A stretch of 40,579 bases of DNA, from positions 1 through 40,579 of the IMG/VR virus record IMGVR_UViG_3300024518_000011. The stretch is one strand, 5' to 3'. The stretch comes from a virus. Position numbers and translations under genes: made by a program. Positions 3,781-39,036 of this stretch are shown here, in pieces. Numbering within the stretch: position 1 is the first letter of the stretch; each line of letters opens with the position of its first letter. The notes beneath the pieces were generated by a model, which searched no databases, was not told the DNA's origin, and saw nothing but the letters and a program-made list of their open reading frames with translations.

Positions 3781-5594
3781 TGGCGAAATCAATATCCTAC
3801 TCCCTCACGAATTTCAGGGCGTCGCTACACACGCAACCGGCAAAGATAGACGCTGGCGGTATAACGCTGGCAGACATGAAAAATCTGCGGGTGGATGCCA
3901 ATGGGATGCTAATTCCTCGATATGCCGTGACACAAGCGAAAAATCTCGGTGATAGCCCTACGGGATTCGCGGTGGCGCGTCATGGAGATCACGTTGTGCC
4001 AATCTATCTGGCAGACAACGGTGATTTGGGCGTGATTATCAACAACACGCCTGTTGATATTTTGCTTGCGTCAGATATGACAGGGCGCATATCTGCGGAT
4101 TTCATCGTCAAGGATGTGATTGTCGTCACGTCTGAGGGTAGCGATCAGGGATATTGGATTGGATTGCAGAATTGGCCCGCTTTGGAAGTACATCCGCTTG
4201 GCATTGTTCCGCCGGTGTTGTCGGGTGCTACGCCTACGCCTGGCGTGGGTGGCAGTATGGCACCGTCGCTATACTACTATTATCGGCAAACATATCAGCG
4301 AAGCGTGAACACCGTTGATCCGTTCAATCTGGCAGAATCTAATGGTAGCGATGTTGTAGAGGTCTTACTGGGAGCGGGGGATAGCTCGGTAGCATGGACA
4401 GATCTTCCCAATTCGACTGACGGGCAAACCACCCGGAAAATCCTTTGGAGGTCTGAGGGGCAAGCGTCGCAATTACCGGCGGGGGCGCAATTGACGGAGA
4501 AATACTATCTGGTTGCGTATCTTCTCGCTGATGCCACGACTTTCCTTGATCAGAACGCAGATGGTGTGATTACAGCAAACACGCAACTGAGGATTGATAA
4601 TACCCGTGTGTCGTCGGATGTCCAGAATTTCGCATATTATCGCGACCGGGTTTTTGCTCCTGCCAAAGAGGATATGTTTTTTAGCGACCGGCGGGCGGGG
4701 GATCCGGTATGGTGGGCTTTTCCTGAAGATAACGCCCTGCGTGTCAATGCTGAAAAGGTGTTTGCTGTGGAATGGCGGGGCGTCCTGCTGTTCGGCGGGC
4801 CTGATGGGATATGGCGTCTTGTTGGTGATAACGTGTATAATTTTGAGATAGATAGAATTTCTCGAATCGGGCCGCTTGACGGGTTCTCATGGGCAAAGAC
4901 TAAGGACTTTATCGCGTTCGTCGGTATCAACGGCTTGTATGCGTGCGACGGCATTCGTGTTGAGTCGTTGCATGATGTCGCGCTCCGTGGATTCTTTGAT
5001 AACATGCAGACCAAAAAGGGCGCGGTCGTGGCGTTTCCGTCTGAGGAAATCCTGTTCAATGTTTACGTCGATCTCGCGGCTGGCGGGTCGGCGTCCTACC
5101 AGTTCTTACGTCAGCCCGATGGGGCATGGGAGAAATGGGAAGATATAAATATCAGCCAGGGCGACTGGCTGGTTACAACATCGCTGGTAGACGCTGAAAA
5201 GACTTTAGATGTATACATCATTGAAGACGGCGAAAACGAGGTACGGGAAATCCTCTGGGACCGTCCGACGATAAAACAGGATACGGACTTGGAAGGCGCG
5301 GATGACATAGTTTGGTCATTCAAGACGCAACGGCTTTTCTGGAAAACACAGGGGCTCGGTGGACAGCGCAAGATTTTTCGGTGGGTTGAGATAATCCCGA
5401 CCTCGACCAAAACGATGACGGTCGAGGTCTGGGTGGATGGGTCAAGTGTGTTGAGCAGTTCTTACTCGGTCGCACGTTCGGTGATTGCGCCGTTTCGGGT
5501 GCCGATATTTTCCAGTGGGTTCGATGTCCAGGTGGAGGTTTCAGGGACGGGTGACGTAGGCATCGAAAGCCTTTGGATCGTGGGAGCGGTATAA
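3780..5594 (+). CDS. Tail nozzle-like structural protein
   Basis: The 604-residue product is rich in short beta strands typical of a propeller-like tail protein: repeated aromatic-glycine turns, a VYNFEIDRISRIGPLDGFSW segment and GINGLYACDGIRVESL. In short-tailed phages a protein of this size directly follows the adaptor and forms the tail nozzle (T7 gp12 is the classical example). The ATG overlaps the adaptor stop by one base. No enzymatic motif or signal peptide is seen. A beta-propeller minor tail protein is the alternative. Confidence 0.55.
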   Translation: MAKSISYSLTNFRASLHTQPAKIDAGGITLADMKNLRVDANGMLIPRYAVTQAKNLGDSPTGFAVARHGDHVVPIYLADNGDLGVIINNTPVDILLASDMTGRISADFIVKDVIVVTSEGSDQGYWIGLQNWPALEVHPLGIVPPVLSGATPTPGVGGSMAPSLYYYYRQTYQRSVNTVDPFNLAESNGSDVVEVLLGAGDSSVAWTDLPNSTDGQTTRKILWRSEGQASQLPAGAQLTEKYYLVAYLLADATTFLDQNADGVITANTQLRIDNTRVSSDVQNFAYYRDRVFAPAKEDMFFSDRRAGDPVWWAFPEDNALRVNAEKVFAVEWRGVLLFGGPDGIWRLVGDNVYNFEIDRISRIGPLDGFSWAKTKDFIAFVGINGLYACDGIRVESLHDVALRGFFDNMQTKKGAVVAFPSEEILFNVYVDLAAGGSASYQFLRQPDGAWEKWEDINISQGDWLVTTSLVDAEKTLDVYIIEDGENEVREILWDRPTIKQDTDLEGADDIVWSFKTQRLFWKTQGLGGQRKIFRWVEIIPTSTKTMTVEVWVDGSSVLSSSYSVARSVIAPFRVPIFSSGFDVQVEVSGTGDVGIESLWIVGAV

Positions 5595-6086: not shown

Positions 6087-6700
6087 TGATTACAAGTGCG
6101 GCGATTCAGATGGCAAATAGCGTTCAGGGGATTGCGCCGATTGTTGTGGCCGCTGGCATCGCTGCCGGTGCCGGTCTTGCTGAGAGTGCATTCGATTTCT
6201 TTGGTGCGCGTGAATCCAGGGATTTACAACGTGAGGTCTTAGACGAGCGTAGGGGACGGCTAAAGAAGCTCCAACGGTTTCAGGCGGGGCAATTCACGCC
6301 ACAGGAGCGAAAAGGCATCGAAGCGGGTTCCGCGTCCCAATTTGAATCGGTAGCCTCGTCGTTATCGGCGCGTGGGATTGGTCAAAGTCCTGTCGCGGGG
6401 CAACTGATAAGCGAAACGAAACAACGTCCATTTCTGGAATTACAACGTGCTGCGGTAGGCGCGGAGGGTGCCGAACTGTCTGCGTTCGAATCAACTGCAT
6501 CGCAGAATCTAGGCCTCGCATTGGGTCGTAGGGCGGGATTTTTCAATAACATACAAGGCATCAGCCGTGCGTTGGTGATGCTAAATGGTCAGGACAGAAC
6601 GGGTGATGCAGAGATTGACGATGCGATGGACTTCTTTAATAAGATTGGCGTCGATGCCGTGCCACAGGGTCAAGGTTTTGGTGGGGAGGTGACGGTCTGA
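6083..6700 (+). CDS. Internal virion (gp14-like) protein candidate
   Basis: I chose the ATG at 6083 because it overlaps the previous stop (ATGA) and has GGAGGTGG just upstream; an ATG at 6068 lies inside that site. The 205-residue product has a hydrophobic Ala/Gly-rich segment (IAPIVVAAGIAAGAGLAES) near the N-terminus and then helical sequence with QSPVAGQLISETKQRPFLE. Small proteins with this layout, followed by two large helical proteins, are typical of the ejected internal core of podoviruses (position equivalent to T7 gp14). The functional call is by analogy. Confidence 0.5.
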   Translation: MMITSAAIQMANSVQGIAPIVVAAGIAAGAGLAESAFDFFGARESRDLQREVLDERRGRLKKLQRFQAGQFTPQERKGIEAGSASQFESVASSLSARGIGQSPVAGQLISETKQRPFLELQRAAVGAEGAELSAFESTASQNLGLALGRRAGFFNNIQGISRALVMLNGQDRTGDAEIDDAMDFFNKIGVDAVPQGQGFGGEVTV

Positions 6701-6701
6701 C

Positions 6702-8201
6702 ATGGGGATTGAAGATGCGTTTGCAGGTGCTATCGAGGGTTTTTCGGCGTCGTTACTCGGCGCTCTGGAGGCTAAGGTCGCGCTGGCACAAGCGGCAACG
6801 GAACAAGAACGGATTAAGCGTGCGGATGAACTGGCTATCAGAAAGCAGGATTTAGCAGAGAAGCGGCTGCAAGTCGAATCGATGTCAAACTCTGAGGAGT
6901 TAGGGTTTGAGCGTGAGAAGTTAGAGCGCTCTGATTCGCGGTTGCGCGAACTTGCCACAAGCCAACAACAGACACAGAAAGATATAGCCGAACTGCGTGC
7001 GCAAACTGATAAGGACGTTGCAGGGACACGAGCCGAAAGCCGGAGGGACGTTGCAGGGACACAAGCCGAAAGCCGGAGGGACGTTGCAGGGACACGAGCC
7101 GAAAGCCGGAGGGATGTTGCAAAACTTCGTCCCACAAGCCGGGGTGAGTTAGTCGATTTCTCTGGTTTTACGTTGCAGGAAAAAATGAACGCACGAAATT
7201 TCGTGGAGGAACGATTTGGAGGTGTCCTTGCTAGGCGCGACAGTATGGTATTAGATGTTTTGAAATTGACGAAAGAGGGCAAAAGCCTAGATGGTATTGA
7301 GGATGAAATTAGGAGGTCGGAGGTCTCGGAAGAATTTCGCGGGCCTATCCGTCAAGCGTTCCGATCTTTAAGCGTTTCGCTGTCCCAGTCGGAAAAGGAT
7401 AATCTGGAAAATGCTATCGATCAGGCTTTAGAGGCGGGGGATACAAAAGGCGCATACCGTGAATTGATTAGCGGGTTTGTAAAGACGTTGGGGGCGGGAG
7501 AGCGTAAGAGCTTCACAGGCCGTCAGCAGATGTTGTCCTCCTTGACAGATATAAAACAAACGTTGAAAGCGCTTGAGGCGGAGGGCGTCCGCCCGGGGCC
7601 TGGGACTGCCATAAAGGAATGGGCGGCGGCGCAAGGTAGGACTACTGCGAATCCGGAAGTGCGCAGTTTGGTTGCCAAAATGAACCTGCTTTTGACAACG
7701 TTTCGAAGAACGTTTACAGGTCTGGTATTTTCTGATGCAGAATCCAAACTTTACGAAGGAATGCTACCAGGCATAGACAAAGATGCAGAATTGAATGAAT
7801 CGATTATGGAAGCCATGATTTCGACGAATTTGAGATTTGCACAGTCAGACATTGAGAACTCCATCCCCAATATCCGCGAGACAATAGACTCTGAGTTATT
7901 GAATGATTTCCTAATCGGAAGCGTTCCCCCATCGCAAGGGCGGGGCGCTGAAGAAACGCGAACTAAAATCAATGAATCGGTGGGCGTCACGCTTACGGAA
8001 GGTTCCACAGTGAAAGAGGGGGGACGTGCATCCGAAACTCAAGGCCCCGAAGCTCAACAAATTTCCGACGCACAAGTTGATGGGATTGTTGATGATGCGT
8101 TGAGACTGAAGATTGACCCTGGCGAAATCTTCGAATCTCTTGCCCCCCGCCTGACGGAAGTACAAAAAGAAAGGCTGCACGCGAGACTGGAGGTGCGATA
8201 A
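6702..8201 (+). CDS. Coiled-coil internal virion protein with 33-bp repeat
   Basis: The 499-residue protein starts with a short amphipathic region and continues as a long charged coiled coil (roughly residues 22-145). At about residues 105-137 it carries three consecutive 11-residue units of the form DVAGTxAESRR, encoded by a perfectly phased 33-bp tandem repeat at 7014-7112. The rest is helical and acidic. It lies between the gp14-like gene and the largest virion gene, whose start overlaps its stop. I infer an ejected or tail-lumen structural protein. No enzymatic motif was found. Confidence 0.55.
   Translation: MGIEDAFAGAIEGFSASLLGALEAKVALAQAATEQERIKRADELAIRKQDLAEKRLQVESMSNSEELGFEREKLERSDSRLRELATSQQQTQKDIAELRAQTDKDVAGTRAESRRDVAGTQAESRRDVAGTRAESRRDVAKLRPTSRGELVDFSGFTLQEKMNARNFVEERFGGVLARRDSMVLDVLKLTKEGKSLDGIEDEIRRSEVSEEFRGPIRQAFRSLSVSLSQSEKDNLENAIDQALEAGDTKGAYRELISGFVKTLGAGERKSFTGRQQMLSSLTDIKQTLKALEAEGVRPGPGTAIKEWAAAQGRTTANPEVRSLVAKMNLLLTTFRRTFTGLVFSDAESKLYEGMLPGIDKDAELNESIMEAMISTNLRFAQSDIENSIPNIRETIDSELLNDFLIGSVPPSQGRGAEETRTKINESVGVTLTEGSTVKEGGRASETQGPEAQQISDAQVDGIVDDALRLKIDPGEIFESLAPRLTEVQKERLHARLEVR
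7014..7112 (+). repeat. Three tandem 33-bp units within coiled-coil gene
   Basis: Units start at 7014, 7047 and 7080 and differ by only one or two bases; a fourth begins at 7113 and decays. Each encodes 11 residues (DVAGTxAESRR), three heptad-like turns of coiled coil, so unit number changes rod length without changing frame. Confidence 0.9.
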
Positions 8202-11824: not shown

Positions 11825-12916
11825 TCATTGGCGCTTCATCTCGCCCCAAGTTGTCGGGAGCTTCCCTCGCGCCCCGACGTTTGTGAGTAAGTCCATTTCA
11901 AATGCCAAATTCGTTGAGAAAAAAGGCATCATCTCGTCCTCGAACTGAGGGACGAAACTGGGGTCAACATGCCCGCCCTCAAACACCTTAAACGTGTGCG
12001 GCACGCCCAAAGCACTCAGCGCGTCCGAAACAACCCCACCATGATCTGGGTGGTCGAAGCTCCCCCGACGAAAACTGACCACCACTTCCGACAGATTGTG
12101 GCGGAAGTCATAGGCAATTGTGGGGATGTCCTCGGCATCAAGCCACGCTTGCCAGATTGTATCGTTCCGTACCAGTTCACCGTTGACCAGCCCAAACGGA
12201 AGGTCCACGAAGAACGGAGGATTGCCTGGGTTTGGCGAAAATGCCGCACCTGCTGAAATTTGTGCGCGGGCTGGCACCGATGCCGCGTGGAACTCAGCCA
12301 TGCTTGTCAGGGATAGTGCCTCCCGCCACCCACCTTGACTCATTACCCAGGGTGCCATTTCAAGCGGGCCGCCTCCGCTCAATGCAAAGGTGGCGGCGTA
12401 AATCTCTGGGTGCTTGAAAGCCAGTTTTAATGCACCGCTGGCTCCCGCCGAATATCCAAAGATGCCACGGCTTGATCGTTGGGGGAGGGTGCGATAATTG
12501 GCATCCATGTGGAGAACCAAGTCGTAGACGATAAAATCTTCCCAGTTCCCCGTTACGGGTGAATTGGCATACCACCCGCCCCCGTATTTGTTGAGCGAAT
12601 CAGGAGCGACAACGATCATCTCACCGATTCTGCTCTGGTGAATCAAGTCGTTGATCACCCCCCTTATGTGGAAGTCTTTCCCCGCCCAAAAAGTATGGTC
12701 GTCGCCCCAGCCGTGGAGCAGGTAAACAACGGGGTAGTGTTTTAGGCTGTCATCGTACCCTCGCGGGAGATATACGACGATGTTTCTGTATGCCGAGTCG
12801 CCGAGCATGTTGCCCTCAATAGCAGGGCTGTAAACGGTGTCATAGACGAGTGTGCCCTTTTGCGGTGCCGTAAATTGGGCACACAGCCACAGTGCGAAAA
12901 CTAAGCCTTTCATCAT
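11825..12916 (-). CDS. Secreted esterase D-like alpha/beta hydrolase
   Basis: The 363-residue protein opens with a probable signal peptide (residues 1-17, MMKGLVFALWLCAQFTA). It shows the esterase D/feruloyl-esterase fold: VVYLLHGWGDD (about 63-73) at the oxyanion side, the nucleophile motif GYSAG (154-158, Ser156), an Asp at 288 or 291, and EGGHVD with His316. The family hydrolyses ester bonds of acyl- or feruloyl-sugars, S-formylglutathione or mycolates; the substrate is not predictable here. It should act outside the cytoplasm. AAGGAGTC precedes the start, which overlaps the previous stop. Such an enzyme is unusual in a 40-kb phage. It may attack the host envelope at lysis, alter surface acylation, or be a metabolic gene. 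Confidence 0.85.
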   Translation of the reverse strand: MMKGLVFALWLCAQFTAPQKGTLVYDTVYSPAIEGNMLGDSAYRNIVVYLPRGYDDSLKHYPVVYLLHGWGDDHTFWAGKDFHIRGVINDLIHQSRIGEMIVVAPDSLNKYGGGWYANSPVTGNWEDFIVYDLVLHMDANYRTLPQRSSRGIFGYSAGASGALKLAFKHPEIYAATFALSGGGPLEMAPWVMSQGGWREALSLTSMAEFHAASVPARAQISAGAAFSPNPGNPPFFVDLPFGLVNGELVRNDTIWQAWLDAEDIPTIAYDFRHNLSEVVVSFRRGSFDHPDHGGVVSDALSALGVPHTFKVFEGGHVDPSFVPQFEDEMMPFFSTNLAFEMDLLTNVGARGKLPTTWGEMKRQ

Positions 12917-16980: not shown

Positions 16981-17190
16981 ATGAAGCGACTGGTTTCAGA
17001 AGCCGCAGAGGAATATGGAATTACAAGGCAGCGGGTCTATGCCATGATACGAGACAAGCAGATTATCGCATATAAAGAAGGCGGCGTGATGTTCGTCGAT
17101 ATGGATGAGTTTGCGCGTGTGATGCATGAGAATCGCTGGCGGCGTAAGATTTGGCGAGACTCACAACTCGCGGAAGGGGCGAAGCAATGA
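16981..17190 (+). CDS. Small HTH DNA-binding regulator (MerR/excisionase-like)
   Basis: The ATG at 16981 follows GAAGGGGGGATTTACC; an upstream in-frame TTG lies within the promoter and is rejected. The 69-residue product is a winged-helix HTH of the excisionase/MerR N-terminal type (SEAAEEYGITRQRVYAMIRD as the HTH, GGVMFVDMDEFARVMHEN as the wing and last helix). It is the first gene of the rightward operon and the best candidate to bind the adjacent dyad. Without an integrase, an excisionase role is unlikely. Confidence 0.75.
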   Translation: MKRLVSEAAEEYGITRQRVYAMIRDKQIIAYKEGGVMFVDMDEFARVMHENRWRRKIWRDSQLAEGAKQ

Positions 17191-17756
17191 ACGTACATGA
17201 AATGTCGCATTACAGTGGAATCTATGCTATCCAAAACAAGATGACGGGTGATGAATATATCGGGCATAGCAAAGACATACATGATCGTGTCATGATACAT
17301 CGTAGCCGTCTAAGAGCGGGCAATCACCCAAATCCGAGACTACAGAAAGACTTTCTAGAATATGGGGAATCCGCTTTCCATCTCATCATTATTGAATCTC
17401 TCGATGATGTTCACATTCTGAGGGACCGTGAACGGCACTGGCAAGGCATACGAAAGTCTAGTTATAGTCAAATTGCGGCTTCTGCCGACTTTGAGGCACA
17501 AACCCCCAAACTTGAGAAAATAATTACCCAAGAAGGGCTTGAGCTTCTTGACAGTCGGGAAGTTGCGCAATTGTGCGGTGTGACAAAGCGTACGGTTGGG
17601 ATTTGGCGTCGAAGTGGCGCATTGCCAGCCATCATCGAAAAAAGTGGCAGGCCGCTTTACAATCGCTTTGATGCCGTGAGGGTTGCACACAGTCTGCGCC
17701 CACGCAGATCCAGGATAGGCGATTCGCAAACCGCCACCCGTGAGGTGGTGGCATGA
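17187..17756 (+). CDS. GIY-YIG endonuclease fused to C-terminal HTH
   Basis: The start at 17187 overlaps the previous stop (ATGA) and gives 189 residues. The N-terminal domain has the GIY-YIG hallmarks: SGIYAI (10-15), EYIG (23-26), the conserved Arg34, and RDRERHW with the metal-binding Glu82. The C-terminal part (about 120-160) is an HTH (SREVAQLCGVTKRTVGIWRR) that would give target specificity. This resembles homing or segregation-type nucleases encoded freestanding in phages. It could nick competing phage or host DNA, or move itself. Confidence 0.85.
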   Translation: MNVHEMSHYSGIYAIQNKMTGDEYIGHSKDIHDRVMIHRSRLRAGNHPNPRLQKDFLEYGESAFHLIIIESLDDVHILRDRERHWQGIRKSSYSQIAASADFEAQTPKLEKIITQEGLELLDSREVAQLCGVTKRTVGIWRRSGALPAIIEKSGRPLYNRFDAVRVAHSLRPRRSRIGDSQTATREVVA

Positions 17757-18571: not shown

Positions 18572-18719
18572 AAAGTACGTGTGCGAGTCCTGGTCTCGTC
18601 CCGGCATAAAGTTTTTCGGTGCTGGTGGATTCGCTCTCTGTAATTTCAAATCGCATATTGCGGCATGTAAGAAACGCGCAAGGATGCTGGCTATGTCAGA
18701 GCCTGAAGGTGGAAGATGA
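18537..18719 (+). CDS. C2H2-like zinc-finger mini-protein (60 aa)
   Basis: The gene starts after GGAGGTATCAG. The 60-residue product has CPIC at residues 3-6 and later C and H residues in ALCNFKSHIAACKKR, giving a C-C-H-C pattern for one zinc, with a basic tail. It is coupled to the DNA methyltransferase by ATGA. It could help target the methyltransferase or regulate transcription; this is inference. Confidence 0.65.
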   Translation: MRCPICKKDFPKKYVCESWSRPGIKFFGAGGFALCNFKSHIAACKKRARMLAMSEPEGGR

Positions 18720-19951
18720 GAATATTGCAAGGGCATGTCCTGGACATGCTGAAAACGCTTGACGCTGAATCGGTGCATTGCTGCGTGACGAGTCCTCCAT
18801 ACTGGGGGCTTAGAGCATACGGCACCGAGCCGCAGAACTGGGGAAATTGGCGGGGCGAACTCGGAAGCGAACCAACGCCCGAAATGTACGTCTCGCATAT
18901 GGTTGAAATCTTTGATGAGGTTCGGCGGGTATTACGGAAGGATGGGACATGCTGGCTAAATATCTCTGATAGTTATGCGGCGAATAGAAGCTATCAGGTG
19001 AAGGACAGCAAGCATGTAAACGTTGGGAATAATGGCAGATCTTCGGTGCCGGACGGACTGAAGCCTAAAGATATGTGTCTGATCCCTCAACGTCTCGTCA
19101 TTGCCCTACAAGATGCGGGCTGGTGGGTACGATCTGACATTGTATGGTCTAAGCCGAACCCGCTGCCTGAAAGCGTCAGGGATAGACCATCTCGTAGCCA
19201 TGAGTACATTTTTCTGCTCACCAAGACGAGAAGGTACTGGTATGATGCCGATGCGATACGGCGAAAAGCGCGTATTGGCGACCTCACAAATCCTAGCTAC
19301 CGCAAGCGTGGGAAAAGTGACTCACGAAAAAAGCATGTGAATATTAGCGGGATTAAATGCGCTCCCAAGAATAATGGTTTTTTTCAGGCGGAAACCGCAA
19401 ATGCCCGCTCAGTCTGGACGTTTGCAACCGGATCATTCAAGGATGCCCACTTCGCCACGTTCCCGCAAGAACTGGTAAGGCGTTCCGTGCTGGCTGGCTG
19501 TCCTGAAAAGGTGTGTAGGTACTGTGGGAAGGGGTGGGTACGAGAAGTCGAGTCGAAAGCTGGCGTAAGTAAAGACTGTCCAAAAACTCAAATGAGCCGT
19601 GAAGCGAGAGGACAGAAAGGCGCGACAGGTACTGTGGGACAGTCTGGGTCTGGCCGTGTCGATGGGTATCGCAAGACTCTTGGCTTCAGCCCTACTTGTT
19701 CCTGTAACGCTCCTCATGATGGCAATCCATGCCACCATTGCGGAACGGAAGGCTTCCGGGCGAGTGTTGAACCATGCTATTCGCCTGGCATTGTGCTTGA
19801 CCCGTTTTTGGGGTCTGGTACGACAGGCTTAGTAGCACTCCAGTTGAATCGAGAGTGCATCGGTATTGAACTAAATCCCGAATATGCAGAGATGGCAGAA
19901 AAGCGCATTTACAATGATGCACCACTGCTGAATGGCGTGGAGGTAATATGA
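18716..19951 (+). CDS. DNA N4-cytosine/N6-adenine methyltransferase with zinc insert
   Basis: The 411-residue protein is a permuted (beta-type) amino-methyltransferase. The catalytic motif TSPPYWG (25-31) comes first, and the SAM-binding FLGSGTTG (364-371), followed by IGIELNPEYAEMA, lies at the C-terminus. An insert contains CRYC (267-270), CSC (328-330) and CHHC (339-342), a probable zinc-binding target-recognition module. It transfers methyl groups to DNA and, with no restriction enzyme nearby, is an orphan enzyme likely used to evade host restriction or to mark phage DNA. Its recognition sequence is unknown. Confidence 0.9.
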   Translation: MRILQGHVLDMLKTLDAESVHCCVTSPPYWGLRAYGTEPQNWGNWRGELGSEPTPEMYVSHMVEIFDEVRRVLRKDGTCWLNISDSYAANRSYQVKDSKHVNVGNNGRSSVPDGLKPKDMCLIPQRLVIALQDAGWWVRSDIVWSKPNPLPESVRDRPSRSHEYIFLLTKTRRYWYDADAIRRKARIGDLTNPSYRKRGKSDSRKKHVNISGIKCAPKNNGFFQAETANARSVWTFATGSFKDAHFATFPQELVRRSVLAGCPEKVCRYCGKGWVREVESKAGVSKDCPKTQMSREARGQKGATGTVGQSGSGRVDGYRKTLGFSPTCSCNAPHDGNPCHHCGTEGFRASVEPCYSPGIVLDPFLGSGTTGLVALQLNRECIGIELNPEYAEMAEKRIYNDAPLLNGVEVI

Positions 19952-21308: not shown

Positions 21309-21521
21309 ATGAAAAGACTAAATATTGCTATTTCAGACGTGTTACACGCCAGGCTGAAAACCCATGCGAAGGAACTGGAAATCTCACGAACGGAGATTAT
21401 CAGGCGTGCGCTGATGATATACGTTCCACCATTGAAAGATGAATATGTGGACCCGTTCACACAACTAGCAATGCATGAAAAATCTGCTACATCTAGCGAG
21501 ACAACGAAAGCCGGGGCGTAG
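21309..21521 (+). CDS. Ribbon-helix-helix (CopG/Arc-like) regulator
   Basis: The ATG at 21309 gives 70 residues. MKRLNIAISDVLHARLKTHA starts with the beta strand, and ELEISRTEIIRRALMIYV supplies the second helix of an RHH DNA-binding fold; the C-terminal tail is disordered. Such proteins dimerise and bind operators in the major groove. It has a private promoter upstream and an intrinsic terminator at its stop codon, so it is a self-contained unit inside the early operon. Confidence 0.85.
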   Translation: MKRLNIAISDVLHARLKTHAKELEISRTEIIRRALMIYVPPLKDEYVDPFTQLAMHEKSATSSETTKAGA

Positions 21522-21544
21522 GTCGTCCTGGCTTTTTCTTTTTG
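21507..21544 (+). terminator. Intrinsic terminator after RHH gene
   Basis: AAAGCCGGGGCG (21507-21518) pairs with CGTCCTGGCTTT (21524-21535; two G-U pairs) around a five-base loop, followed by TTCTTTTT. The TAG stop of the RHH gene lies in the loop region. Confidence 0.8.
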
Positions 21545-21553
21545 GAGGGAATT

Positions 21554-21832
21554 ATGAGACTTGAGACAGTTGACAACAAAGAGCATGTCTGGTGGTGTTC
21601 TGAACACGGTATCATCCACAAGGTCGTAACCTGCAACGATGAGCTTGACGAGATTCAGCATAATCGGCATCACCGGACATGCTTCGCCTGTCGTGGTATG
21701 GAGGTTGAGCAACTTGCCAGAGCAGATGACCCAGAAGCTGCGATTTCCAATAGGCGCATTGAAAAAAAGATAGCTTGGTTGAACATGATCAAGAGCAAAC
21801 AGGGACAGCCGGGGCAAGAGGAGATCTTGTAG
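21554..21832 (+). CDS. Zinc-binding small protein upstream of the initiator (92 aa)
   Basis: The ATG at 21554 follows TTTTGGAGGGAATT. The 92 residues contain WWCSEHGIIHKVVTC and RTCFACRG, i.e. several Cys and His residues in zinc-ribbon-like spacing, followed by a helical charged tail. It directly precedes the initiator gene with no gap and may be a helper in replication, but no family is recognised. Confidence 0.65.
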   Translation: MRLETVDNKEHVWWCSEHGIIHKVVTCNDELDEIQHNRHHRTCFACRGMEVEQLARADDPEAAISNRRIEKKIAWLNMIKSKQGQPGQEEIL

Positions 21833-22975
21833 ATGGATAAACCTGGAATTATCAAGAAAGAAAAGCGGGCGCAACTGGCGTTTGAATTTCGCCCGTTACC
21901 GCTCGAAAGCGACTTGCTGTTTTGGGATAAGGACATCTCCCGGACCGGGATTCTGGTCTACCTATGGCTTCTACGCCAACGAGACACATACAACGGAAGC
22001 ATTGTCACCCGTAAATGTCAACTATCCCAAATTGTGAATGATTTTCAGCGTGAAGGAAAATCTCTTGCGCTGAATACCGTCCGAAATGCACTCAGAGAAT
22101 TGCGAAATGCCGGAATGATTGAGACGGTAGAATCCAAGCAAGAAAAGAATCAAGGTGAACATTGGTTGATTTTTCGGCTTCTCATTCACACTTCACAACA
22201 GGACGAATACGGCGAACGAACTTGGGCATTAGGCACCTGTCCGGAAACCGGACAGGGTGTCCGGAAACCGGACAGCGGGTGTCCGGAAACCGGACAGGGT
22301 GTCCGGAAACCGGACAGCGGGTGTCCGGAAACCGGACAGCGGGTGTCCGGAAACCGGACAGTAGGTGTCCGGAAACCGGACAGGCAACCCGCCTCTAAGC
22401 CAGAATCTACGCCTGTTCCAGCGACCCCCTTAGACTCTTCTTTAGACTCTTCTTTAGACTCTCTCTTAGAAGCCGGTGCGCAAGCCATAAAAAGTGGGTG
22501 GGCAAAACGGTATTCGGTAAAGAAAGAGAGAGAGATTTTTCTCAAGCAAAAGAAAGATGAATGGTTCATGTCTGCGCTGAAGAAATCTCTTGACCTTCTG
22601 GAATGCACCGATGTCAATCTCGTAAGAGATGCGTGGTTGAAAGCGATTCGCACACATCAAACGTTACAGACGTATACCGGGCAAGACATCCGGGGGCCTG
22701 ACTATTTCCTTACTGAGGAAGGTTTTTCGTTCTTGGATCATGCTTTTAACTTTGTAAAGGCATCGCCAGGGAAAAGCAAAGAGGCTGACGACTTAGAGCC
22801 GTGGGAACGGACCCGCGCGAATTTCACGCCCGAACAGCGGGAGTGGGCAAAGACGTATGGGCGCACGCCTGGCCAGTATCCGCCAGATGCGCCTCGATTG
22901 CCACGAGAAGAAACTAAAAAGTTGCTACGGTCGGTAGGTGTTCCTCTGAAGGATCGGGAAGCTACAGAGGTGTGA
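21833..22975 (+). CDS. Replication initiator (lambda O-like), origin inside gene
   Basis: The 380-residue protein has an N-terminal winged-helix region (residues 35-120: ISRTGILVYLWLLRQRDTYN, LNTVRNALRELRNAGMIETV) of the replication-initiator type. It has a low-complexity centre encoded by seven iterons (about residues 135-183), an LDSSLDSSLDSLLE repeat, then a helical C-terminal domain probably used for partner contacts. This mirrors lambda O, whose gene contains its own origin iterons followed by AT-rich DNA. The protein probably binds the iterons and loads host helicase. No polymerase or helicase is encoded nearby. Confidence 0.8.
   Translation: MDKPGIIKKEKRAQLAFEFRPLPLESDLLFWDKDISRTGILVYLWLLRQRDTYNGSIVTRKCQLSQIVNDFQREGKSLALNTVRNALRELRNAGMIETVESKQEKNQGEHWLIFRLLIHTSQQDEYGERTWALGTCPETGQGVRKPDSGCPETGQGVRKPDSGCPETGQRVSGNRTVGVRKPDRQPASKPESTPVPATPLDSSLDSSLDSLLEAGAQAIKSGWAKRYSVKKEREIFLKQKKDEWFMSALKKSLDLLECTDVNLVRDAWLKAIRTHQTLQTYTGQDIRGPDYFLTEEGFSFLDHAFNFVKASPGKSKEADDLEPWERTRANFTPEQREWAKTYGRTPGQYPPDAPRLPREETKKLLRSVGVPLKDREATEV
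22238..22382. repeat. Seven palindromic iterons, probable replication origin
   Basis: The 17-bp palindrome TGTCCGGAAACCGGACA (arms of seven bases around AAA) occurs exactly seven times, starting at 22238, 22258, 22280, 22300, 22322, 22344 and 22366. Spacings of 20 or 22 bases place the sites on one DNA face roughly every two turns. They lie inside the initiator gene, as in lambda-type origins. Confidence 0.95.
22430..22468. repeat. 12-bp direct repeats beside the iterons
   Basis: TTAGACTCTTCT-type units recur with a 12-base period (TAGACTC at 22431, 22443 and 22455, then a partial TAGA at 22467). They sit 50 bases downstream of the iterons, where lambdoid origins carry the AT-rich unwinding region. 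They are in frame and encode LDSS repeats. Confidence 0.75.
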
Positions 22976-22976
22976 G

Positions 22977-23156
22977 ATGGCTCCGATGGGTAGAAAGCCG
23001 TTACAGTTTCCAGGCAAACGGGATGTCCATCCACGCAAGCCACTTGTGAATTGGTGGGAAGTGGCACTAAACCAGGCAGACAGGCGGAAAGCCGAAAGAC
23101 AACGAGCAAAACGCCTGATTGCACGATTCGATCAGCGAGGCATGAGTGATGACTGA
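22977..23156 (+). CDS. Small basic protein next to initiator (59 aa)
   Basis: The frame starts two bases after the initiator stop and encodes 59 residues: a basic N-terminus (MAPMGRKPLQFPGKRDVHPR) and a charged helix (WWEVALNQADRRKAERQRAK). Its end overlaps the next start. It could contact the initiator or host helicase loader; this is positional inference only. Confidence 0.6.
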   Translation: MAPMGRKPLQFPGKRDVHPRKPLVNWWEVALNQADRRKAERQRAKRLIARFDQRGMSDD

Positions 23157-24040: not shown

Positions 24041-24352
24041 ATGTGTAAGATGAACTTTTGGGCAGAGATGGAGAAATTGAGGTCTGAAGGGTGGTTGGTT
24101 CTCATCAAGGCACTGCCAGACAACTTGCCCTGGGTTATCCCTGGCAATTGTAGCGAATTTGATGCGCCGTGCCCAGACAAGCTCATCGAACGCGGGAAAT
24201 GGGCGGTTGAGATCTCATGGATGCGTCGAAAAGGGTATCGCTCTCCGCATGATGCGTTTGGTGATTCGCCACAAGAAGCGCTTGCCAGGCTATTACGACA
24301 GAAAGAGGTGCATGATGCCAATCTCAGCAGAGAACCGAAGGCGGTATCCTGA
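24041..24352 (+). CDS. Hypothetical early protein (103 aa)
   Basis: The gene starts after AAGGAACGGT. Its 103 residues begin MCKMNFWAEMEKLRSEGWLV and end in DSPQEALARLLRQKEVHDAN, a pattern of one alpha/beta domain with helical tail. It resembles small DUF-type phage proteins in which an 'EAL.RLL' helix is common, but no function is known. It overlaps the HNH gene. Confidence 0.65.
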   Translation: MCKMNFWAEMEKLRSEGWLVLIKALPDNLPWVIPGNCSEFDAPCPDKLIERGKWAVEISWMRRKGYRSPHDAFGDSPQEALARLLRQKEVHDANLSREPKAVS

Positions 24353-24665
24353 CGACTGGGCGCTCCGAAGTCGGTTCATTCGGTTCTATCGTGCCAAAAA
24401 TCGTTGTGAGGGGTGCGGAGCCGAAAACTATAAGCCGCACCCGGTGACAGGTTCGTGGGTAATCCTGACGTGCGCCCACGTCCATGATCACGCACCGGAG
24501 AATGCGAGCCTGCTGAATCTTGCAGCGTGGTGCCAATTATGCCATAACCGGCATGATAGCAAGCATCGGGCTATCAACAGACGGCGAAAACGGGAACAGT
24601 CGTCGGGTCAGTTGACGCTATTTGACCCTGAGTTCTTTGGTAAAAAGGTTGAGGTGACAGAATGA
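24315..24665 (+). CDS. HNH-type endonuclease-like protein
   Basis: The ATG at 24315 follows AGAGGTGCATG. The 116-residue protein starts MPISAENRRRYPDDWALRSR and carries CEGC, LTCAHVHDHAPEN, then NLAAWCQLCHNRHDSKHR: two CxxC zinc pairs framing a His-Asn-His type site. Phage proteins with this layout are HNH nucleases, often near packaging or replication genes, that nick DNA. The fold is well supported, but activity is not proven. Confidence 0.75.
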   Translation: MPISAENRRRYPDDWALRSRFIRFYRAKNRCEGCGAENYKPHPVTGSWVILTCAHVHDHAPENASLLNLAAWCQLCHNRHDSKHRAINRRRKREQSSGQLTLFDPEFFGKKVEVTE

Positions 24666-39008: not shown

Positions 39009-39036
39009 TCTAGCCCGCTGAAAAGGAGGTAAGATT

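Follow-up and report, generated by a model that had tools for sequence, protein, structure and literature searches.

A seven-copy palindrome array inside a putative phage initiator gene as a probable lambda-type replication origin

How can a DNA sequence be kept letter for letter within a protein-coding gene when its successive copies are translated into different peptides? This question is raised by a 40,579-nucleotide stretch of viral DNA, hereafter the window, which is the entire IMG/VR record IMGVR_UViG_3300024518_000011. A 17-bp palindrome, TGTCCGGAAACCGGACA, is present there in seven exact copies without any mismatch, between positions 22238 and 22382 and inside the open reading frame 21833–22975; dinucleotide shuffles give a chance expectation of 0.09 matches, with up to three mismatches allowed.

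The probable initiator gene and its palindromes

The features of the locus are as follows, with iteron phases counted from the ATG at 21833.

21833–22975, + strand: probable initiator gene, O-like by weak PHROG profile matches, encoding P0001 (380 aa)
21950–22186, + strand: probable winged-helix DNA-binding domain (residues ~40–118), from profile matches and a low-confidence model
22187–22441, + strand: linker (residues 119–203) with no predicted secondary structure, encoding the array
22238–22254, + strand: iteron 1, phase 0, CPETGQ
22258–22274, + strand: iteron 2, phase 2, GVRKPD / VRKPD
22280–22296, + strand: iteron 3, phase 0, CPETGQ
22300–22316, + strand: iteron 4, phase 2, GVRKPD / VRKPD
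22322–22338, + strand: iteron 5, phase 0, CPETGQ
22344–22360, + strand: iteron 6, phase 1, VSGNRT
22366–22382, + strand: iteron 7, phase 2, GVRKPD / VRKPD
22430–22470, + strand: candidate DNA-unwinding element of low stability, pyrimidine-rich on this strand (TTAGACTCTTCT x3.1; 12-bp unit, repeated at 22430–22467)
22442–22972, + strand: C-terminal region, helical by predicted secondary structure, with a putative role in helicase or loader recruitment
22517–22562, + strand: second easily melted tract, purine-rich, with the lowest stability of any 45-bp stretch in the gene

The initial annotation had reported seven perfectly conserved palindromes translated in all three frames, and both statements are borne out: an exact copy begins at each of the seven starts listed, and the phases run 0, 2, 0, 2, 0, 1, 2, giving CPETGQ three times, VRKPD three times and VSGNRT once. 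All seven point the same way, with the AAA centre on the + strand, and follow one another at steps of 20, 22, 20, 22, 22 and 22 bp. The two-turn alternating spacing described earlier holds for copies 1–4, where a 42-bp dimer recurs in frame, but not for the last three steps, which are all 22 bp and sum to 66, a multiple of three. At 10.5 bp per turn, the seven copies deviate from a single face of the DNA by no more than about 0.2 helical turn. Their identity could be partly due to recent amplification.

P0001 matches three PHROG profiles, all weakly: phrog_345 (replication initiation O-like; E=1.4e-4), phrog_186 (DnaD-like loader; E=1.7e-4) and phrog_270 (replication initiation protein; E=5.5e-4). 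The matches span residues 33–204, with an N-terminal part on 33–115. A Pfam scan gave nothing above cut-off, and relatives were found neither by tblastn in phage or plasmid records nor by peptide-pattern scans of viral and genome contigs; a search via the terminase found no syntenic relatives. A single-sequence model of poor quality (pLDDT 39) predicts helices at residues 56–74 and 80–92, a beta hairpin at 96–118, then no structure until residue 204, after which helices follow. This prediction fits an order of winged helix, tolerant array-holding linker and helical C-terminal region. The AlphaFold model was set aside as a query for fold searches, being too poor. The C-terminal region has no profile match of its own in the whole-protein scans, and no helicase or helicase loader gene was recognised among nine neighbouring ORFs tested. 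Possibly this phage has an unrecognised loader, or its initiator contacts the helicase directly; neighbouring helicase or loader genes such as those for lambda P and P22 gp12 are accessory to the O-like group and do not define it as a whole.

On the 3' side of the array, the 30-bp segment at 22438 is among the least stable 0.6% of all such segments in the genome. No DnaA boxes above chance level occur near the array, and GC skew, one of the checks proposed in the initial annotation, has no inflection at this locus.

Other features of the window are recorded here for completeness. A DNA methyltransferase (18716–19951; N6_N4_Mtase, E 5.7e-45) is encoded about 2 kb upstream of the initiator, and the region is flanked by ORFs resembling a GIY-YIG-type homing endonuclease (17151–17756) and an HNH endonuclease (24159–24665). 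Farther away lie an ORF (650–2668) in which a methyltransferase domain is joined to a stretch of glycosyltransferase family 9 type, a putative esterase on the - strand (11825–12916; PF00756, E 6e-20), and a 33-bp tandem repeat (7013–7121; 3.3 copies, 96% matches) within the ORF 6702–8201.

In-gene arrays of lambda, P22 and other O-like genes

Such an arrangement is familiar from phage lambda. The annotated iterons of lambda start at 39034, 39054, 39078 and 39101, thus in steps of 20, 24 and 23 bp, and their phases (0, 2, 2, 1) cover all three frames. Gene 18 of P22 carries TCGGTAAAAC repeats with the same steps (20, 24, 23), again in three phases and within the annotated rep_origin, and gene 18 of phage L is reported to carry the repeat TGTCCAACGGA; the in-gene iterons of lambda, P22 and L differ from phage to phage (PMC8022706). 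O proteins are dimers whose minimal binding sequence is an imperfect inverted repeat, those of lambda and Stx phages bind their own in-gene iterons directly, and an AT-rich tract is crucial for unwinding (PMC7466680).

The window shares with the lambda origin its in-gene iterons with dyad symmetry, their steps of about 20–24 bp, the location of the copies near one helical face, the reading in three frames and the easily melted tract on the 3' side. It differs in having seven perfect 17-bp iterons of another sequence instead of four imperfect ones of 18 bp, and lambda O and P0001 are alike only at the profile level. The earlier statement that these iterons look unlike those of lambda is thus correct for their sequence, but not for size class, dyad symmetry, spacing or three-frame reading, which match lambda and P22. 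Lambda and P22 show both the reading in three frames and the spacing of nearly two turns, so these features are usual in lambda-type in-gene origins, and an in-gene origin read in three frames is not new. With P22 and L the window likewise shares repeats inside an O-like gene, a weak assignment for P0001, and the repeats differ in sequence; P22 pairs its gene with the DnaB-like gene 12, whereas no such gene was recognised among the neighbouring ORFs tested in the window. Iteron plasmid replicons have their iterons upstream of rep, in contrast to the window, where all seven lie inside the gene.

The search of initiator homologues for in-gene repeats, also proposed initially, covered 249 Pseudomonadota genomes, 22 of which gave phrog_345 matches, with 24 distinct genes of sufficient length. 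An array was defined as at least four copies of a 12-mer, 15–30 bp apart, a level not reached in codon shuffles. Such tandem arrays are present in 14 of the 24 genes and in none of 25 non-overlapping neighbouring ORFs, with a detector that errs on the conservative side, since the imperfect TGTCCGGATTTCGGACA copies of L045 escape it. Ten of the 14 arrays are read in more than one frame; since the other four are read in a single frame, multi-frame reading is common but not universal.

Lambda, P22 and most of the related genes examined likewise have an easily melted tract 3' of the array. The 3' flank is less stable than the 5' flank in 19 of 23 genes with arrays, and its median within-gene stability percentile is 0.25%, versus 8.9% for random places (0 of 2000 resamplings reach it). 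The 14 genes of the survey, together with those of lambda, P22 and the window, make up 17 of these 23, and apart from the window gene these were picked regardless of the TGTCCGGAAACCGGACA palindrome.

One palindrome in dissimilar initiators

The recurrence of the palindrome, or of its TGTCCG-N5-CGGACA form, across seven or more dissimilar initiator families of winged-helix type is the more unusual feature. The exact 17-mer TGTCCGGAAACCGGACA occurs in 33 stretches of IMG/VR, 22 of which have it within the linker of an initiator-like gene of winged-helix type: 18 complete genes of a family whose proteins start with MSHxATNWAI, two partial ones (L038, L043), and L023 and L036, which encode the same protein. 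Representatives match O-like PHROGs, with E down to 1e-32, as well as Pfam HTH_36, the latter in all 8 members of A1. As in the window, with its probable winged helix, the palindrome of the phrog_345 initiators of the MSHxATNWAI family (L013–L042) follows the winged helix, in the linker, and is read in three frames, whereas their copies are imperfect and irregularly spaced (93, ~37, 23 and 23 bp), and their likeness to P0001 at the protein level comes mainly from iteron-encoded residues. No paper that names the palindrome was found.

When only the arms are held constant, tandem TGTCCG-N5-CGGACA is found in 20 viral contigs, compared with 0 and 1 contigs for scrambled-arm patterns of equal composition, a large contrast even with only two such controls. 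Sixteen of the 20 carry the array directly after a winged-helix-like domain and represent five further protein types (L079-, L084-, L078-, L081- and L086-type); as the contigs are redundant, the count of protein types weighs more than that of contigs. Replication-initiation PHROGs are matched by five of six representatives (L023 included); L078 matches HTH_IclR only. The contigs with arrays in initiators span GC contents of 0.56–0.70. A similar array in L010, from a Kiritimatiellae MAG, was not counted, its upstream frame being unreadable as a winged helix. The L084-type (phrog_270) resembles the window in its perfect copies (five, of the TGTCCG-N5-CGGACA form), its 22- or 25-bp steps and its reading in three frames, and differs in its protein and in its centre, GGAGG or GGAGA instead of GAAAC.

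Two observations bear on whether selection acts on DNA, as had been claimed at first, and support this claim indirectly. In the MSHxATNWAI family, codons of same-residue pairs differ at 7% of the columns of iterons 2–5 versus 38% elsewhere (iteron 1 was excluded, the loci having been chosen by it). Synonymous change in these iterons is thus about five times lower than elsewhere. Some caution is needed, as comparably low values occur in individual six-codon blocks in other parts of the gene: the blocks of iterons 4 and 5 are only 15th of 270 and 14th of 257 in rank, although several of the blocks with still lower values overlap the array. Within the L084-type, L084 itself has GGAGG in each of its five centres, L090 and L093 have GGAGA in each, and L087 is mixed; because the centres change jointly, the array shifts as a unit over three frames, with the protein following.

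The site may also be separable from the protein body. Natural domain swaps are seen in L026 and L029, which share winged helix and iterons with L016 and have unrelated C-terminal regions. The alignment of P0001 with L016 is limited to the translated iterons (E 6e-6) and leaves out the N-terminal domain; that of P0001, taken alone, is not alignable with the MSHxATNWAI family (probability 1.3%). Because the P0001–L016 alignment is confined to iterons, the detectable common ground between these genes and the window is the site, at the DNA level, which may stem from cassette descent, from convergence or from a host factor. The case seems to us evenly balanced for a broader proposal, that TGTCCG-N5-CGGACA is a recurrent iteron type common to seven or more winged-helix phage initiators that are dissimilar to one another, a binding site uncoupled from the initiator body. 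Either winged helix and site would form a cassette that becomes joined to different C-terminal domains, or the arms would be fixed by a shared recognition code or by a host factor, with the 5-bp centre varying by lineage.

Copies outside initiators were also recorded. L002 (3239, 6473–6543), L003 (6543–6612, 10046) and L030 (1305) have the exact 17-mer outside any initiator; they form one phage group, near-identical over overlaps, with a triplet at a virion-type gene junction (25–28 bp steps) and single copies elsewhere. The idea, taken from L002 and L003, that the 17-mer is a phage-wide regulatory element was dropped, as most exact matches lie in initiator linkers. L018 (3735, 5517, 9331, 11957) and L021 (237, 2874, 8679), two related contigs that share about 75% identity, carry scattered single palindromes. 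Intergenic DNA of L031 (1211–1275) has a single exact palindrome followed by three DnaA-box-like TATCCACA repeats, possibly another origin, and L082, a 169-kb contig, has four TGTCCG-(G/A)TGAA-CGGACA-type palindromes (3986–4080) in AT-rich DNA (40% GC locally) with no ORF across.

Competing explanations and the origin reading

Palindromic dimer sites would also suit a repressor, and the array might thus be a set of operators and not an origin, serving a distinct repressor or the initiator's control of its own gene. The dispersed identical copies outside initiator genes in L002, L003, L018 and L021 fit such a role; the array in the window, however, lies mid-gene with no promoter-like site in 21500–23000, the same palindrome is concentrated in the linkers of dissimilar initiator genes, and easily melted DNA follows the arrays, which together make operators improbable. 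We consider it still less probable that a host DNA-binding protein, and not the initiator, recognises TGTCCG-N5-CGGACA and aids the start of replication. Such a factor would account for one site among dissimilar initiators, and for arms that stay identical while the recognition-helix regions of the initiators differ, but the GC range of the array-bearing contigs suggests diverse hosts, and the direct binding of lambda and Stx O proteins to their own in-gene iterons (PMC7466680) speaks for the initiator.

Action of the array in mRNA, where seven stable hairpins would attenuate transcription or translation, is very improbable: RNA folding is far stronger than in shuffles (z=-6.8), yet hairpins come automatically with perfect DNA palindromes, and there is no Rfam match. 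Intrinsic terminators were also considered and rejected, as there is no terminator-like site at the array. The identity of all copies and the in-frame 42-bp dimer could be cited for recent, neutral tandem duplication within a disordered linker, which is given just as little credence; the three frames and variable spacers, the strong synonymous constraint and the recurrence of the same site in other phages argue against it.

On the sequence evidence, the array is very probably the iteron cluster of a lambda-type origin located within the gene for the protein that starts replication there. Several points speak against this reading: the weak initiator assignment of P0001 (E about 1e-4), its N-terminal domain that does not align with the MSHxATNWAI family, the lack of a recognised helicase or loader among the neighbours tested, the GC skew that does not turn at the locus, and the copies of the 17-mer outside initiator genes. 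What is observed is the anatomy of the sequence, the pattern across phages and, in the arrays of other phages, DNA-level constraint; the anatomy, with its winged-helix-like N-terminus, iteron linker and easily melted tract on the 3' side, agrees with the initial annotation of a lambda O-like origin in a tolerant linker. At such an origin, each 17-bp palindrome would be occupied by a P0001 dimer through its N-terminal winged helix, and seven dimers on about one helical face would wrap the DNA. The adjoining tract of 12-bp repeats would then melt, and the host's replicative helicase would be recruited by the C-terminal region. Since the array-encoded linker would tolerate any frame, it is the DNA sequence and not the protein sequence that would be kept.

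For a virus that is otherwise unplaced, sequence alone has in this way located the likely origin, and the locus suggests a practical rule for finding origins: search winged-helix genes for a linker that carries palindromes in tandem and is followed by DNA that melts easily. Because one palindrome recurs across dissimilar initiators, the evolution of initiator specificity becomes directly testable, with many natural initiator-site pairs now listed.
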